A DNA stretch of 44,581 nt from an uncultured Bacilli bacterium (lineage in GTDB: Bacteria; Bacillota_I; Bacilli_A; RF39; UBA660). The position numbers and the translations under genes were made by a program. Positions within the stretch are counted from its first letter, which is position 1; each line of letters starts with the position of its first letter. This document shows positions 28,689 through 39,012 of the stretch, piece by piece. The stretch spans positions 1 through 44,581 of the forward strand of contig CALVVH010000003.1 of assembly GCA_944363805.1 (NCBI GenBank), in the 5' to 3' direction. A model generated the notes under the pieces. The model saw only the letters and a list, made by a program, of their open reading frames with translations, was not told the origin of the DNA and made no database searches.

Positions 28689-29678
28689 TTGTCTAATAAA
28701 CATCTTTTTCTTGATGTTTATGATGACTATATGCTTTATGCAAGGAAAAAACAAAAAAATCAAAGTTTCACTAGCATGAAATATAAGTTTGATTTACATG
28801 TTTTACCTTATTTTAAAGATATGTTTTTAGAGAATATCACAAGTAAAATTATTTTAGAGTGGGAAGAACATATTTTAACTTTTAATTTTTCTAATAATCA
28901 AAATAGAAATTTATATTATATTCTTAGTGGCTTTTTTGAGTATTGCAGTGTATTTCTTGGGTTTGATAAAAAGATTATTAGCAATGTTGGTTGTTTTAAA
29001 AGAAAGTATGAAGATAAGAAAGCCGATTATTATACTTTAGAAGAATTTTATCAGTTTATTAGTGGTTTTACTGATGAAGATTTTGTTTTTAAGCAGTTCT
29101 TTACTTTAATGTTTTTTACTGGTTTACGTCCTGGCGAGGCTATGGCTTTAAAATTTAAAGATTTAAGCAATGGATACATAAATGTATCTAAGACAATAGA
29201 AAGCCACGGAAAACGTGATATAACGACTCCAAAGACATATTCTTCTAATCGACAAGTAAAAATTGATAGAAAGTTAGAAAAAGACTTACTTAAGTTAATA
29301 AAAGTATATGAAGATAAAGGAATACCTTTTAATAGTGATTTATTCTTGTTTGGAGCAACGAAACCTTTATCTCCTAGTACAATTGATAGAAGAAAAGAAA
29401 AAGCCTGTAAAAAGGCTGGAATTAGGTCTATAACGTTACATCAATTTAGACATAGTCATGCTACTATGCTTCACAATATGGGTATTCCTATTACTGAAAT
29501 ATCAAGACGTTTGGGACATAGTAAAGTAAGTACAACACTAGATGTATATAGTCATACTGATTTAACACAAGAAAAAAGAGTGTTTGACACTCTTAATTCA
29601 ATTAGATTTAACCGTTTCACTAGCATGAAATATAAGTTTAAATCTATATTAAAACGGATATTCCGTTCTAATAACTAA
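28689..29678 (+). CDS. tyrosine recombinase / integrase
   Basis: 329 aa. An N-terminal SAM-like core-binding domain (residues 5-105) is followed by the catalytic domain with R147 (TGLRPGEAM), H251 and R254 (HQFRHSHATM), H277 (LGHSKVSTT) and nucleophile Y287. Start is TTG 28689 behind AGGAAG. It excises and integrates the element at the tRNA-Gly 3' end, which begins 3 nt after the stop. Oddly, residues 27-34 (FTSMKYKF) recur at 310-317 through a 26-bp exact DNA repeat. Confidence 0.92.
   Translation: MSNKHLFLDVYDDYMLYARKKQKNQSFTSMKYKFDLHVLPYFKDMFLENITSKIILEWEEHILTFNFSNNQNRNLYYILSGFFEYCSVFLGFDKKIISNVGCFKRKYEDKKADYYTLEEFYQFISGFTDEDFVFKQFFTLMFFTGLRPGEAMALKFKDLSNGYINVSKTIESHGKRDITTPKTYSSNRQVKIDRKLEKDLLKLIKVYEDKGIPFNSDLFLFGATKPLSPSTIDRRKEKACKKAGIRSITLHQFRHSHATMLHNMGIPITEISRRLGHSKVSTTLDVYSHTDLTQEKRVFDTLNSIRFNRFTSMKYKFKSILKRIFRSNN
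28765..28790 (+). repeat. 26-bp exact direct repeat within int, copy 1
   Basis: Identical to 29614-29639, 849 bp away in the same reading frame. Both copies encode FTSMKYKF. Confidence 0.9.
29614..29639 (+). repeat. 26-bp exact direct repeat within int, copy 2
   Basis: Second copy, in the last codons of the integrase gene, 42 nt from the right attachment repeat. Confidence 0.9.
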
Positions 29679-29681
29679 ATA

Positions 29682-29700
29682 AATGGAGCAGGTGATGAGA
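29682..29700 (+). repeat. attachment-site repeat, right copy
   Basis: Same 19 bp as 26733-26751. It covers the CCA end, acceptor 3' strand and part of the T arm of tRNA-Gly. Confidence 0.88.
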
Positions 29701-29757
29701 ATCGAACTCACGTCAGGAGCTTGGAAGGCTCTTATTCTACCATTAAACTACACCTGC
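29684..29757 (-). tRNA. tRNA-Gly (anticodon UCC)
   Basis: 74 nt including an encoded CCA. Acceptor GCAGGTG pairs with CACCTGC, the discriminator is U as in bacterial tRNA-Gly, the D loop has AATGGTAGA, the anticodon loop is CTTCCAA (anticodon TCC), and the T arm is GTGAGTTCGATTCTCAT. It closely resembles Bacillus tRNA-Gly. It serves as the attachment site of the adjacent element, which sits at its 3' side and preserves its sequence. Confidence 0.95.
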
Positions 29758-34827: not shown

Positions 34828-34840
34828 TATAATAAGTTAC

Positions 34841-35026
34841 AAGCAGATGAAGAAAGAGTAGTAAATTATGTTTTTTTAAATAGAGAATTAGTGGTTGGTG
34901 AAAACTAATAAAAATCATAATTGAACTTGCTTTTGGATGTGTTGGGGTAATTTCCTTATCAATTATAAGAGAAGTAATTAAGGTGGTACCACGAGTTTTA
35001 CTCGTCCTTTGGGATCATCTTTTTTT
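34841..35026 (+). promoter_or_regulatory. T-box leader, leucine-specific
   Basis: The T-box core TGGTACCACG lies at 34984-34993 within AAGGTGGTACC. Stem I has an AGTAGTA region, AGAGA and GGTTGGTGA motifs. An AAATTATG/CATAATT helix is followed by a specifier loop reading AACTTGC, giving codon CTT (Leu) at 34926-34928. The terminator is ACGAGT/ACTCGT plus T7 at 35020-35026. It senses uncharged tRNA-Leu and controls the membrane protein-leuS operon. Confidence 0.9.
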
Positions 35027-35040
35027 ATGGAGGGATAAAC

Positions 35041-35442
35041 ATGAATGAATTTATTTGGACACTTATTTGGGGTGGAGCATTATTTGTAATAGTGTTTGTT
35101 ATCAATTATTTTCTCATTTTAAAAAGAGGATATAAGAATATACAAAAGGCTAAGAAGAAAAAAAGAAATAAAAAAATTGAGGATTTTGTAGGTTTTTCAA
35201 TTTTGATTCCGAAGTTTAAACTTGATATCAATAAGATGAATCTCAATTATGTATTTGTGTTGTCATCTTTAATTAATGCATTTATTATTGCGTTAGTGTT
35301 TGTAATAATTTATAGTATTCCATGGGATTTACCTTTTCAAATACTCCTCGCATTTGTCCTTTTATTTGGACTTATATATGCATTATATGAATTATTAGGA
35401 AGGCATTTAGTTAAGAAAGGTTGGAAGAAAGATGAAAAGTAA
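35041..35442 (+). CDS. three-helix membrane protein upstream of leuS
   Basis: 133 aa. There is one N-terminal helix (TLIWGGALFVIVFVINYFLIL), a strongly basic cytoplasmic loop (KKKKRNKKIEDFVGF), then two helices (FVLSSLINAFIIALVFVIIYSI and FQILLAFVLLFGLIYALYELL). I do not recognise the family. It sits between the leucine T-box and leuS and overlaps leuS by 11 nt, so it responds to leucine starvation. Whether it is functionally tied to leucine is unknown. Confidence 0.7.
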   Translation: MNEFIWTLIWGGALFVIVFVINYFLILKRGYKNIQKAKKKKRNKKIEDFVGFSILIPKFKLDINKMNLNYVFVLSSLINAFIIALVFVIIYSIPWDLPFQILLAFVLLFGLIYALYELLGRHLVKKGWKKDEK

Positions 35443-38242
35443 AATAATAGAAGAAAAGTGGCAAAAATATTGGGAAGAACATAAGAGTTTTGAAGCTGTT
35501 ACAGGAAGCGATAAAGATCCTTATTATATTTTAGTTGAGTTTCCTTATCCGTCAGGTTCAGGGCTTCATGTTGGGCATGTTCGTAGTTATACAGCACAAG
35601 ATGCAATGGCTAGAATGATGCGAATGCAAGGAAAGAATGTTTTGTTTCCAATGGGCTGGGATGCTTTTGGGGCACCAGCAGAACAATATGCAATAAAAAA
35701 TCATATTCATCCTAAGGAAGCAGTAAAAGAAAATATTAAGACTTTTAAAAGACAAATGCAAACATTAGGTTTTTCATTTGATTGGGATAGAGAGTTTTCA
35801 ACGACAGATCCGGAATATTATAAATGGACACAATGGCAATTTTTACAATTTTATAAACATGGAATGGCTTATAAAGATACGGTGCCTGTAAATTGGTGCC
35901 CAAATTGTAAAACAGTTTTGTCAAATGAAGATGCAGCTGGGGGAGTATGTGAGAGATGTGGTACCCAAGTTGTTCAAAAGGAAAAAAGTCAATGGATGCT
36001 TCGAATGAGTGATTATTCAGAAGATTTACTTAAGGGACTTGATGATACTAACTTTGCTGAAAAAGTAAAACTTGGTCAAATCAATTGGATTGGTAAATCA
36101 ATTGGAGCAGAAGTAACATTTAAAATTGATGGATATGAAGAAAAGTTTACAGTATTTACAACAAGGTGTGATACTTTATTTGGGGCAACATATTGTGTTC
36201 TTGCTCCAGAACATAAACTAGTTGATGTAATTACAACGGACGATAAAAAATCAGAGGTAGAAGCTTATAAAGAAGCATGTCTATTAAAAAATGAAATGGA
36301 AAGAACGGAACTTAATAAGGAAAAGACTGGAGTATTTACTGGGGCTTATGCAATTAATCCAGTAAATGGAGCAAAAATACCAATTTATATAAGTGATTAT
36401 GTTCTTGCAAGTTATGGTACTGGTGCTATTATGGCCGTTCCGGCGCATGATGAGCGAGACTATGAATTTGCGACTAAATTTAATATTCCAATTATTCAAG
36501 TTCTTGAAGAAGTAACTGGTACTCCTTATGAAGGAGAAACTAAGAAAAATTCAATTGTAGCAATTTTGTATGATGAGGCAAATGACAAATATTTGACAGT
36601 TAATTGGCATGAAATGGGAGGTCGTTTGTTTATCGGAGGTACAATTAAAGAAGGGGAATCAGCATTAGATTGTGCTATAAGAGAAATAAAAGAAGAAACA
36701 GGATATAAAGATATTGAACTTGTTTGTGAACTTCCAAAGATAAATCATCACTATTATGCTTATAATAAAGATAAGTATTTCAATATTGAATCAACAGGAT
36801 TTTTGTTTAAGTTAGTAAGTAATGCTCAAGATGAACAAAATTTAGATGATGATGAAAAATTTGATTTGGAATGGGTAGATAAAAATACCATTATGGCTGA
36901 GGTTAACGATGGGCTTCATAAGAAGACTTTTGAATATGCAATGAAGCCGGGAGCTATGGAAGGTGATGGAATACATATTAATTCTGGTTTCTTAGATGGC
37001 TTAAATAAAGAAGATGCAATAAGCAAAATGTTAGAATTTTTGGAAGAACATAAATGTGGTAAAAAACAAGTAAACTATAAAATGCGTGATTGGATTTTCT
37101 CAAGACAAAGATTCTGGGGTGAACCAATTCCAATGATTTATTGTAACACCTGCGGCTGGCAACCGATGAATGAAGAAGATTTACCTTTGCTTTTGCCAGA
37201 TGTTGCTGAATATGAACCAACGGATAATGGAGAAAGTCCACTTGCAAAAATTACGGATTGGGTAAATACAACTTGTCCAAAATGTGGTGGACCAGCAAAA
37301 AGAGAAACTGATACGATGCCAAACTGGGCAGGATCTAGTTGGTATTTCTTGAGATTTATGGATCCACATAACGATAAAGAGTTTGCTTCGATGGATGCTA
37401 TGAAATATTGGCGAAGAGTAGATTGGTATAATGGTGGAATGGAACACACTGCTAGACACTTACTTTATGCGAGATTCTGGGTACAATTTTTGTATAATAT
37501 CGGTTTAGTTCCAAGTAAGGAAATGATTTGGACTAGAGTAAGTCATGGTATGGTACTTGGTAGTGATAACCAAAAGATGAGTAAATCTAAAGGAAATGTA
37601 ATTAATCCGGATGATATTGTCAATGAATATGGTGCAGATACTTTGAGAGTTTATGAAATGTTTATGGGAGATTATCAAAGTGATTGCCCGTGGAGTACAG
37701 ATTCTTTAAAAGGCTGCAAGAGATTCTTAGATAAAGTAATTCGTTTAAAAGAAAAAGTAGTTGATGGAGATAAATATTCTGATGCGTTAGAAAAAATAAT
37801 TCATAAGAGTATTAAGAAAGTGCAAAATGATTTAGTTGCAATGTCATATAATACTGCTATATCGACATTGATGATTTTAGCAAACAGTTATGATGAAATG
37901 ATGAATATAACCAAAGAAGATTATCATTTATTACTTACTTTACTTAATCCAATTGCTCCGCATATAACGGAAGAATTAAATGAAAAACTTGGTTATAAAC
38001 CAATTTGTGAAAGTACATGGCCAACTTATGATGAAGCTAAAACTATAGATGATGAAAAAGAAATTGGAGTACAAGTAAATGGAAAACTTAGAGCTTCAAT
38101 AAAAATTTCTATTAATGAAGCTGAAGAAAGTATTAAAAGTAAAGCTTTGAGTGAAGAAAATGTCAAGAGACATATTGATGGTAAAGAAGTTGTCAAAATA
38201 ATAGTTATTCCAGGACGTATCGTCAATATTGTTGTAAAATAA
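35432..38242 (+). CDS. leuS: leucyl-tRNA synthetase with inserted NUDIX domain
   Basis: 936 aa, against about 805 for typical bacterial LeuRS. HIGH is HVGH 46-49, the zinc finger is CPNC..CERC, editing motifs are TRCDTLFGATYCV and GTGAIMAVPAHDERDYEFA, and KMSKS is at 715-719. The extra 130 residues (about 373-505) sit in the CP1 editing region right after the HDERD segment. They hold a perfect Nudix box at 403-425 (G-x5-E-x7-REIKEETGY). LeuRS sequence resumes at GDGIHINSGFLDGLNK. The frame is unbroken. It charges tRNA-Leu; the role of the insert is unknown. Confidence 0.95.
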   Translation: MKSKIIEEKWQKYWEEHKSFEAVTGSDKDPYYILVEFPYPSGSGLHVGHVRSYTAQDAMARMMRMQGKNVLFPMGWDAFGAPAEQYAIKNHIHPKEAVKENIKTFKRQMQTLGFSFDWDREFSTTDPEYYKWTQWQFLQFYKHGMAYKDTVPVNWCPNCKTVLSNEDAAGGVCERCGTQVVQKEKSQWMLRMSDYSEDLLKGLDDTNFAEKVKLGQINWIGKSIGAEVTFKIDGYEEKFTVFTTRCDTLFGATYCVLAPEHKLVDVITTDDKKSEVEAYKEACLLKNEMERTELNKEKTGVFTGAYAINPVNGAKIPIYISDYVLASYGTGAIMAVPAHDERDYEFATKFNIPIIQVLEEVTGTPYEGETKKNSIVAILYDEANDKYLTVNWHEMGGRLFIGGTIKEGESALDCAIREIKEETGYKDIELVCELPKINHHYYAYNKDKYFNIESTGFLFKLVSNAQDEQNLDDDEKFDLEWVDKNTIMAEVNDGLHKKTFEYAMKPGAMEGDGIHINSGFLDGLNKEDAISKMLEFLEEHKCGKKQVNYKMRDWIFSRQRFWGEPIPMIYCNTCGWQPMNEEDLPLLLPDVAEYEPTDNGESPLAKITDWVNTTCPKCGGPAKRETDTMPNWAGSSWYFLRFMDPHNDKEFASMDAMKYWRRVDWYNGGMEHTARHLLYARFWVQFLYNIGLVPSKEMIWTRVSHGMVLGSDNQKMSKSKGNVINPDDIVNEYGADTLRVYEMFMGDYQSDCPWSTDSLKGCKRFLDKVIRLKEKVVDGDKYSDALEKIIHKSIKKVQNDLVAMSYNTAISTLMILANSYDEMMNITKEDYHLLLTLLNPIAPHITEELNEKLGYKPICESTWPTYDEAKTIDDEKEIGVQVNGKLRASIKISINEAEESIKSKALSEENVKRHIDGKEVVKIIVIPGRIVNIVVK

Positions 38243-38281
38243 AAAGATTAGTGTGGTAAAGCACGCACTAATCTTTCTTTT
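38243..38281. terminator. bidirectional terminator
   Basis: AAAGATTAGTG (38243-38253) pairs perfectly with CACTAATCTTT (38266-38276). A and T tracts lie on either side, between the convergent leuS and kinase-like genes. Confidence 0.85.
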
Positions 38282-39012
38282 TCTTTAGAACTAGGAGGGG
38301 TTATGTATTCTGCAATATCAGAAAATTGTAAATCTAAGTTATCATCTTGGCATTTAGCTTTTTCAATTAAATATTCTATATAGTATAGCAAAGCAGGATT
38401 GGCTTTAATGTTTTTTAATATTTCAAATAATTCTATTAAATCTTTGTTAGAAAAGAAATCTTCTATGTCAATATTATAGTAGATACTTAAAGCTGATAGT
38501 AAGGCTTTAAGGATATCACTAAGTTTAGAATCAGGAATAATATGTTTGTTAATATCAATACAATAACAAACAAGTAAAGTTTTTTTGCTATTAATTTTTT
38601 TGCCAAAATCCCAATCTATGAAGAAGGCTTCATTATTTCTTATTAAAATGTTAGTATTTCTTACATCTCCTAAAATGAGGTGTTCATTGATGCCTCTTAA
38701 AGATTCAAAAATACTTTTCATGATGGCAATTACATCTAATTGGTTGTTTTCTTCTTGAAGTAGTTCATCGATGTTTTTACTATCAGGTATATATGGTAGT
38801 TGATAGCCGTAGATGTGTTCATCTTTTATTAAATCCATTGGTAAAACTAAACCAGAAACATTTTTAAGACTGTTAACATATAAATAGTAGTCATCACGAT
38901 TTTCTCTATCGCTTATTCTTATTACTTTATATAAGGTATCATCTGGTCCCCAATAAAGGCCGCGTTTAAATTGGGGTAGTGATTCGACTTCTTCTTTCTT
39001 TAAATTTAACAT
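38248..39012 (-). CDS. protein-kinase-fold protein (putative small-molecule or protein kinase)
   Basis: 254 aa. The catalytic loop HLILGDVRNTNILI (Asp and Asn of HxD...N) and metal loop FFIDWDFGKK (DFG) define a kinase-like fold. The N-terminal lobe has LYKVIRISDR with a candidate ATP-binding lysine. It is short, with a helical C-terminal lobe. Homologues could be aminoglycoside/choline-type phosphotransferases or bacterial Ser/Thr kinases; the substrate is not evident. AAAGGGGG precedes ATG 39012. Confidence 0.7.
   Translation of the reverse strand: MLNLKKEEVESLPQFKRGLYWGPDDTLYKVIRISDRENRDDYYLYVNSLKNVSGLVLPMDLIKDEHIYGYQLPYIPDSKNIDELLQEENNQLDVIAIMKSIFESLRGINEHLILGDVRNTNILIRNNEAFFIDWDFGKKINSKKTLLVCYCIDINKHIIPDSKLSDILKALLSALSIYYNIDIEDFFSNKDLIELFEILKNIKANPALLYYIEYLIEKAKCQDDNLDLQFSDIAEYITPPSSKEKERLVRALPH

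Follow-up and report, generated by a model that had tools for sequence, protein, structure and literature searches.

Why does a leucyl-tRNA synthetase (LeuRS) carry a second, complete hydrolase domain inside its CP1 editing domain, and what would that domain act on? The question is raised by the leuS gene in a 44,581-nucleotide stretch of DNA from an uncultured Bacilli bacterium (contig CALVVH010000003.1), the whole of which is called the window here. An earlier reading made from the letters of this stretch (the sequence-only reading) had placed a Nudix hydrolase unit of about 130 residues with a perfect Nudix box in the CP1 region, at 36548-36944 (~residues 373-504), and had called it probably active. 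The 936-amino-acid product of the open reading frame (ORF) at 35432-38242 scored 959.2 bits with the TIGR00396 leuS_bact model, against a curated cut-off of 548.4. Pfam family PF00293 matched its residues 375-489 with an E value of 3.3e-12 and 47 bits (gathering cut-off 21.1) and split the LeuRS match into two halves; with these values a chance match is excluded. The domain also belongs to the Nudix fold. Profile and fold thus agree on a real Nudix domain within CP1, and the idea of a LeuRS insertion unrelated to Nudix was discarded. The features of the gene are as follows, all coordinates being those of the window.

35432-38242, + strand: leuS, leucyl-tRNA synthetase with Nudix insertion, 936 amino acids
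35567-35578, + strand: HVGH, residues 46-49 (H46, G48 and H49 invariant in the alignment), which we take to be the class I HIGH signature
36158-36175, + strand: CP1 editing motif TTRCDT, residues 243-248
36437-36460, + strand: CP1 editing motif VPAHDERD, residues 336-343
36491-36961, + strand: KFNIP-to-GDGIHINS span (Nudix domain plus linkers), residues 354-510, 157 residues
36554-36898, + strand: Nudix domain of subtype A, spanning residues 375-489 in Pfam and 365-502 in the family profile
36638-36706, + strand: Nudix box GX5EX7REUXEEXGU, residues 403-425, complete
36962-36985, + strand: GDGIHINS, residues 511-518, where CP1 resumes 3' of the insert
37574-37588, + strand: KMSKS, residues 715-719, located by sequence and alignment; presumably the other class I signature

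The last residue of KFNIP is 353, and the first of GDGIHINS is 511. From VPAHD to HINS the window's LeuRS has 183 residues, compared with 42 in the Nudix-less L077, i.e. a net insertion of ~141 residues; the insertion proposed earlier therefore stands, its size had been put slightly low, and its coordinates were accurate within a few residues. The CP1 fold is preserved on both sides of the insert, and Nudix-less relatives up to 87% identical (L077) have a short loop at this position, as do L080, L111, L113 and L126. The enzyme otherwise resembles known bacterial LeuRS (TIGR00396; T. thermophilus 1h3n/2v0c; the S. pneumoniae editing domain 4k47) in its body, in the fold and editing motifs of CP1 and in the HIGH and KMSKS signatures, and differs by the ~141 additional residues that make up the Nudix unit. 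None of the 60 listed PDB sequences of solved LeuRS was seen to cover the insert, their best stretches ending by residue 368 or beginning at residue 543 or later. The Nudix box of the window reads GTIKEGESALDCAIREIKEETG(Y) at residues 403-425, just where a perfect box had been reported. As all box residues are kept within a Nudix fold, the domain is probably catalytic, in line with the activity predicted earlier.

How widespread is this architecture? A homologue search with residues 360-510 against LeuRS-sized proteins (E <= 1e-3) gave 810 matches, 120 of which were listed, and the strict Nudix box was present in all 126 domains of these 120. This answers the call of the sequence-only reading for a search for co-occurrence of Nudix and LeuRS. 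Metagenome assembly is the source of most of these sequences, which could favour an assembly chimera or an annotation artefact. Yet the matches come from several sources, a single architecture recurs in frame at one site and at several levels of identity, and the 40 LeuRS matches in the order of genome G001 are free of internal stop codons; because the architecture recurs, we regard an artefact as refuted and give it practically no credence. Within the genomes sampled, the trait clusters in two orders. A Nudix match within a LeuRS-sized frame (782-966 amino acids) was found in 40 of the 146 genomes from G001's order, and Nudix-LeuRS in nine of the 191 from that of G006. Across the phylum of G001 it was seen in four of 392 genomes, all four also members of the first-order sample, and across the class of G006 in one of 391, G006 itself (here a different profile was used and at most six candidates were scored per genome). 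The phylogenetic spread, which the sequence-only reading had wished to see mapped, is patchy. A scan of viral_contigs with the full-length LeuRS as query, which detects close relatives only, revealed no phage carriage.

To compare genes at the level of loci, we assembled a set of 170 rows consisting of the window, 163 of 170 LeuRS loci and six tandem proteins taken from the homologue search; 117 rows bear a Nudix domain. Seven loci with ORFs below 780 amino acids (L046, L051, L065, L069, L071, L074 and L149) were left out. The set overlaps the homologue set and contains near-copies, and removal of rows 97% alike leaves 102 domains in 96 rows. The strict box was found in 120 of the 123 LeuRS-embedded domains, or in 99 of 102 without near-copies. 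It is degenerate in L035, L110 and L158 (3/123), and also in L069, which is too short for the set; the Nudix residues are thus far from being lost in all relatives. Across 104 A domains, counting near-copies, conservation averages 0.996 for seven box residues and 0.757 for the domain as a whole. In 11 chosen pairs, dN/dS was 0.04-0.18 for the insert; for the core it was 0.03-0.09 in ten of these pairs and 0.33 in L001-L060, where synonymous sites are near saturation. The Nudix insert has demonstrably been under purifying selection, with its predicted catalytic box intact.

These data bear on the view that the insert is a non-catalytic structural or regulatory element, or a neutral mobile passenger. 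The insert is dispensable and patchy, as this view would have it, and the four degenerate boxes fit it too. So does the LeuRS of G067 (L174, 851 amino acids), which is reduced to the insert edges: by eye against the window, the middle of the insert with the box has been deleted in frame and both edges remain, which shows one case of Nudix loss by in-frame deletion. Against it stand the box residues, which are among the best conserved in the domain, the low dN/dS of the insert, and the retention of the box by 117 of the 120 free-standing relatives listed (see below), in which the editing motifs have been lost. We therefore consider a non-catalytic insert improbable.

The location of the domain suggests a further site for editing, in which the Nudix unit would hydrolyse non-cognate aminoacyl-adenylates (pre-transfer editing) or act, next to CP1, on the tRNA 3' end. 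It lies within CP1, ~20 residues past VPAHDERD in sequence, and phosphoanhydride cleavage is general to Nudix enzymes. However, TTRxDT and VPxHDxRD are both retained in 117 of 117 Nudix-bearing rows, so that nothing has been replaced, and a Nudix domain substituting for a lost editing site is ruled out. L077 is 87% identical and manages without the domain, the free-standing relatives have neither editing motifs nor a synthetic site, and we know of no aminoacyl-adenylate that is a Nudix substrate. An added editing function thus earns little of our confidence.

Among the 53 Nudix-less rows, 35 have both editing motifs and 18 lack TTRxDT. As a separate observation, these 18 (L115-L121, L123-L125, L127, L130, L132, L135, L139, L140, L143 and L144) have TTC(I/P)ET in its place and keep VPxHDxRD. 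The 16 that are present in the insert-free LeuRS tree form one clade, and editing may be altered in these enzymes.

How did the domain come to be so unevenly distributed? In a tree of 136 LeuRS rows from which the insert was left out, presence and absence require 15 changes, at least 12 of which are forced by starred (well-supported) branches. Strictly vertical inheritance is ruled out by these changes and by mismatches between core and insert identity. The clearest mismatch is between L060 and L001: their cores are 55.8% identical in protein and 63.5% in DNA (51% at third positions), in contrast to 93.6% and 94.1% (87% at third positions) for the insert. The breaks of this mosaic lie near residues 345-352 and 520, and dS is 0.27 in the insert versus 1.22 in the core. 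P0025 has the same mosaic (62% identical overall, 91% in the Nudix region); it is 99.6% identical to L060, comes from a different-sized contig and stands for a cluster of 34 sequences. Judged from these alignments, the comparison of L060 with L001 and the window proves one clear case in which the cassette by itself passed between leuS genes that had diverged. The opposite pattern occurs between L007 and the window, with 88% identity in the core and 66% in the Nudix domain.

More generally, in 94.9% of the 2153 A-pairs whose cores are less than 65% identical, similarity is higher in the insert than in the core, a figure to which a constraint plateau, with flat insert identity in deep pairs, could contribute; in pairs with close cores it is the core that is more similar. 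A z above 4 was reached by 23 of the 2153 deep pairs, four of which combine L060 with members of the group of the window. The remaining 19 hint at further transfers and are not independent of one another.

What kind of Nudix domain is being exchanged? Profiles divide the embedded domains into two subtypes that are ~27% identical, A (that of the window) and B, and the 170 rows comprise 98 with A, 13 with B, six B-A tandems and 53 with none. The tandems, which occur in six of the 120 listed homologues (P0051, P0069, P0071, P0075, P0085 and P0091), are proteins of ~1100 amino acids with both boxes intact. A (Y/F)(Y/F)AxxK motif 3' of the box and a tryptophan are common to A, B and the plain Nudix protein P0128. 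The latter, at 32-33% identity, is the nearest convincing plain Nudix protein among 11 matches to the Nudix domain alone; P0130 and P0131 are weaker plain relatives (E ~1e-6). P0121, P0127 and P0129 were set aside as looking chimeric and P0123 as truncated, each by eye. Compared with known Nudix hydrolases of PF00293 (MutT, RppH and diadenosine tetraphosphate (Ap4A) hydrolases; 2azw, 3i7u, 6m6y), the LeuRS domain shares the fold and the full box; it differs in being only ~20% identical, in having its own (Y/F)(Y/F)AxxK motif and in being embedded in CP1. In G135, Nudix-like pieces with stop codons lie at L172:2808-3232, ~2.7 kb from a Nudix-LeuRS gene and on the opposite strand; they look like a decayed B-like Nudix gene.

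Substrate assignment by profiles, PHROGs or PDB sequence singled out no single group. The domain is below the cut-off of all 17 NCBIfam models listed; for the RppH equivalog NF001936 it reached 32 bits versus the 118 required. One candidate is Ap4A, since synthetases form dinucleoside polyphosphates as a side product of aminoacyl-adenylate and ATP: the Nudix domain would then hydrolyse these at their source and so limit an alarmone. However, other Nudix folds are within 1-2 Z units of the Ap4A-hydrolase type in the fold comparison, and a housekeeping need does not predict patchiness, horizontal exchange or tandem subtypes. Moreover, the free-standing CP1-Nudix proteins lack the synthetase body that would produce Ap4A. 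Clean-up of Ap4A or a related alarmone is thus a serious possibility, although we think it unlikely to be the answer.

These free-standing proteins of ~290 amino acids are encoded by ORFs of 277-312 amino acids (one cut to 195) and consist of a degenerate CP1 with a B-like Nudix domain. They were found in seven of the 191 genomes sampled from G006's order and in one of the 146 from G001's; in the single one tested, L199:6702-7517, Pfam detects both the CP1 and the Nudix domain. Among weaker matches, with E values between 1e-13 and 1e-16 and frames 302-313 amino acids long, the four at L191-L194 were rejected, being double-Nudix proteins without CP1. No genome of the two samples had both a free-standing CP1-Nudix and a Nudix-LeuRS at E <= 1e-12, which is not significant at such frequencies. 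A database search at E <= 1e-10 returned 363 proteins. The 120 listed all have PF13603 and PF00293 in their precomputed annotation, and the remaining 243 may include plain Nudix proteins. Among those listed, 117 of 120 have the strict Nudix box and none has TTRxDT; a VPAH-like motif, located in 109, reads HIQEH or similar and never HDxRD. The editing motifs were lost and the box was kept, and therefore the box survived the exit of the unit from LeuRS. The free-standing Nudix domains form one clade (support 98, starred) on the subtype B side; its neighbours in the tree are P0128 and the B domains from L062 and L177 (support 83). Like the embedded B units they are flanked by LeuRS CP1 pieces; unlike these, they lack the synthetase body and the editing motifs and have distinct neighbours in four of eight sampled genomes. 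Such proteins speak against a function tied to LeuRS editing. The listed members currently go by the names NUDIX domain-containing protein, MutT or leucine--tRNA ligase, or have none, and the family merits a name of its own.

In the four genomes with distinct neighbours (G166, G306, G297 and G143; loci L199, L201, L203 and L207), the CP1-Nudix gene lies beside variant radical-SAM, phosphoribosyltransferase (PRTase)-like and CYTH-related genes, a locus that possibly makes or handles nucleotides. The PRTase-like assignment is our own reading of the motif ILIxDSxYSGKT, a Pfam search giving no match; CYTH was assigned by Pfam in L207 only and by BLAST in the others. Nucleoside monophosphate kinase genes of different families are near CP1-Nudix in L199, L203 and L207; that of L203 scores as housekeeping cmk, and the proximity of these kinase genes may be incidental. 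Three of the 191 and one of the 146 genomes gave a match to the PRTase-like gene; these are the four query-source genomes, and the other 333 gave none. The chance of such an overlap with the eight genomes having free-standing genes is ~1e-7 by a hand calculation that assumes independence, which is not strictly met. G246, G284 and G210 have near-identical, different neighbours, GNAT and APH-like genes (one of each was profiled).

Taken as a whole, the comparisons establish for this predicted active site that it is conserved and selected, dispensable to LeuRS, exchanged across species and separable from editing. On balance we lean towards the following account: the window encodes the T-box-controlled LeuRS of a gut Bacillota lineage, whose CP1 loop holds an active, horizontally traded Nudix cassette, which would hydrolyse a nucleotide harmful to LeuRS or made near it. 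Placed in this loop, the cassette would leave the motifs for synthesis and for editing both intact, and it would cleave a diphosphate-type linkage in its substrate. The likeliest kind of substrate would be a toxic LeuRS-directed nucleotide of the class of leucyl-adenylate mimics; such a compound appears to fit the exchange pattern and the gene neighbourhood best, with LeuRS-made Ap4A as its main rival. The cassette would be a built-in protection module, retained only where its substrate is encountered, and we propose that it is because the module is kept only where needed that it is patchy, horizontally traded, duplicated and found as free-standing copies by nucleotide-processing genes. A more specific version, in which the cassette is a horizontally traded resistance module against a LeuRS-directed nucleotide toxin that circulates among gut bacteria, leuS genes acquire, exchange, duplicate and lose it with varying exposure, and the free-standing CP1-Nudix is the immunity or processing factor of a pathway making or handling that nucleotide, is put forward tentatively and seems to us rather doubtful in its full form.

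Is there a model for such protection? TM84 is a leucyl-adenylate mimic, and the LeuRS resistant to agrocin 84 is a second copy. AgnB2, the agrocin 84 self-immunity LeuRS, resembles Nudix-LeuRS in being a special LeuRS form linked to a nucleotide toxin. The producer of agrocin 84 expresses this resistant LeuRS, a precedent for a LeuRS-directed toxin, and resistance comes from changes that abolish the tRNA-dependence of toxin binding and not from an added hydrolase (PMC5059758). For Nudix-LeuRS, the evidence for a toxin is indirect. Several points weigh against the account given above. Besides the degenerate boxes, fold and profile matches do not tell Ap4A, RppH, MutT and ADP-sugar hydrolases apart. 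No LeuRS-directed toxin is known to us from such communities, though no search was aimed at one. In the known self-immunity case the synthetase is present in addition to a normal one, whereas no second LeuRS was found in the 40 Nudix-LeuRS genomes among the matches listed (down to ~520 bits). The PRTase-like gene is absent from four of the eight genomes with free-standing genes, including G246, G284 and G210, which are possibly close kin. Finally, the free-standing genes stand in a different setting from leuS, and their roles may differ.

A tRNA synthetase with an added enzyme domain is known as such: IleRS with an N-acetyltransferase domain (NCBIfam NF040702) is one, although both the synthetase and the enzyme are others. 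The unusually mobile Nudix form is new, and a literature search (titles and abstract starts of open-licence PubMed Central papers) found no description of Nudix in LeuRS. Synthetase inserts are usually regarded as fixed lineage markers; here, in some gut bacteria with small genomes, a predicted catalytic domain moves alone between orthologous copies of an essential gene. Its mobility points to selection that is both strong and changing and that acts on the LeuRS of gut communities. The substrate, once known, would reveal either a new class of LeuRS-directed nucleotides or a source-coupled control of alarmones.

Upstream of leuS, the window contains two further features.

34838-35012, + strand: T-box leader, upstream of the 133-amino-acid ORF and leuS (Rfam RF00230, 99.6 bits against a gathering cut-off of 93)
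35041-35442, + strand: ORF of 133 amino acids with an 11-base overlap with the leuS start and, judged by eye, a membrane-protein-like composition

The 133-amino-acid ORF had no match in Pfam or NCBIfam, and its relatives lie directly 5' of leuS in many loci, including the Nudix-less L078-L080. Downstream of leuS, a Pfam and NCBIfam search with the 254-amino-acid ORF at 38248-39012 (- strand) was likewise without a match; this ORF has counterparts of 57-82% identity in the three closest genomes (L001, L002 and L067) and one weak match in the other loci compared. Farther upstream, at 28689-29678 (+ strand), a tyrosine recombinase-like ORF that scores below family cut-offs adjoins tRNA-Gly(tcc) at 29684-29757 (- strand), a setting typical of an integrated element.

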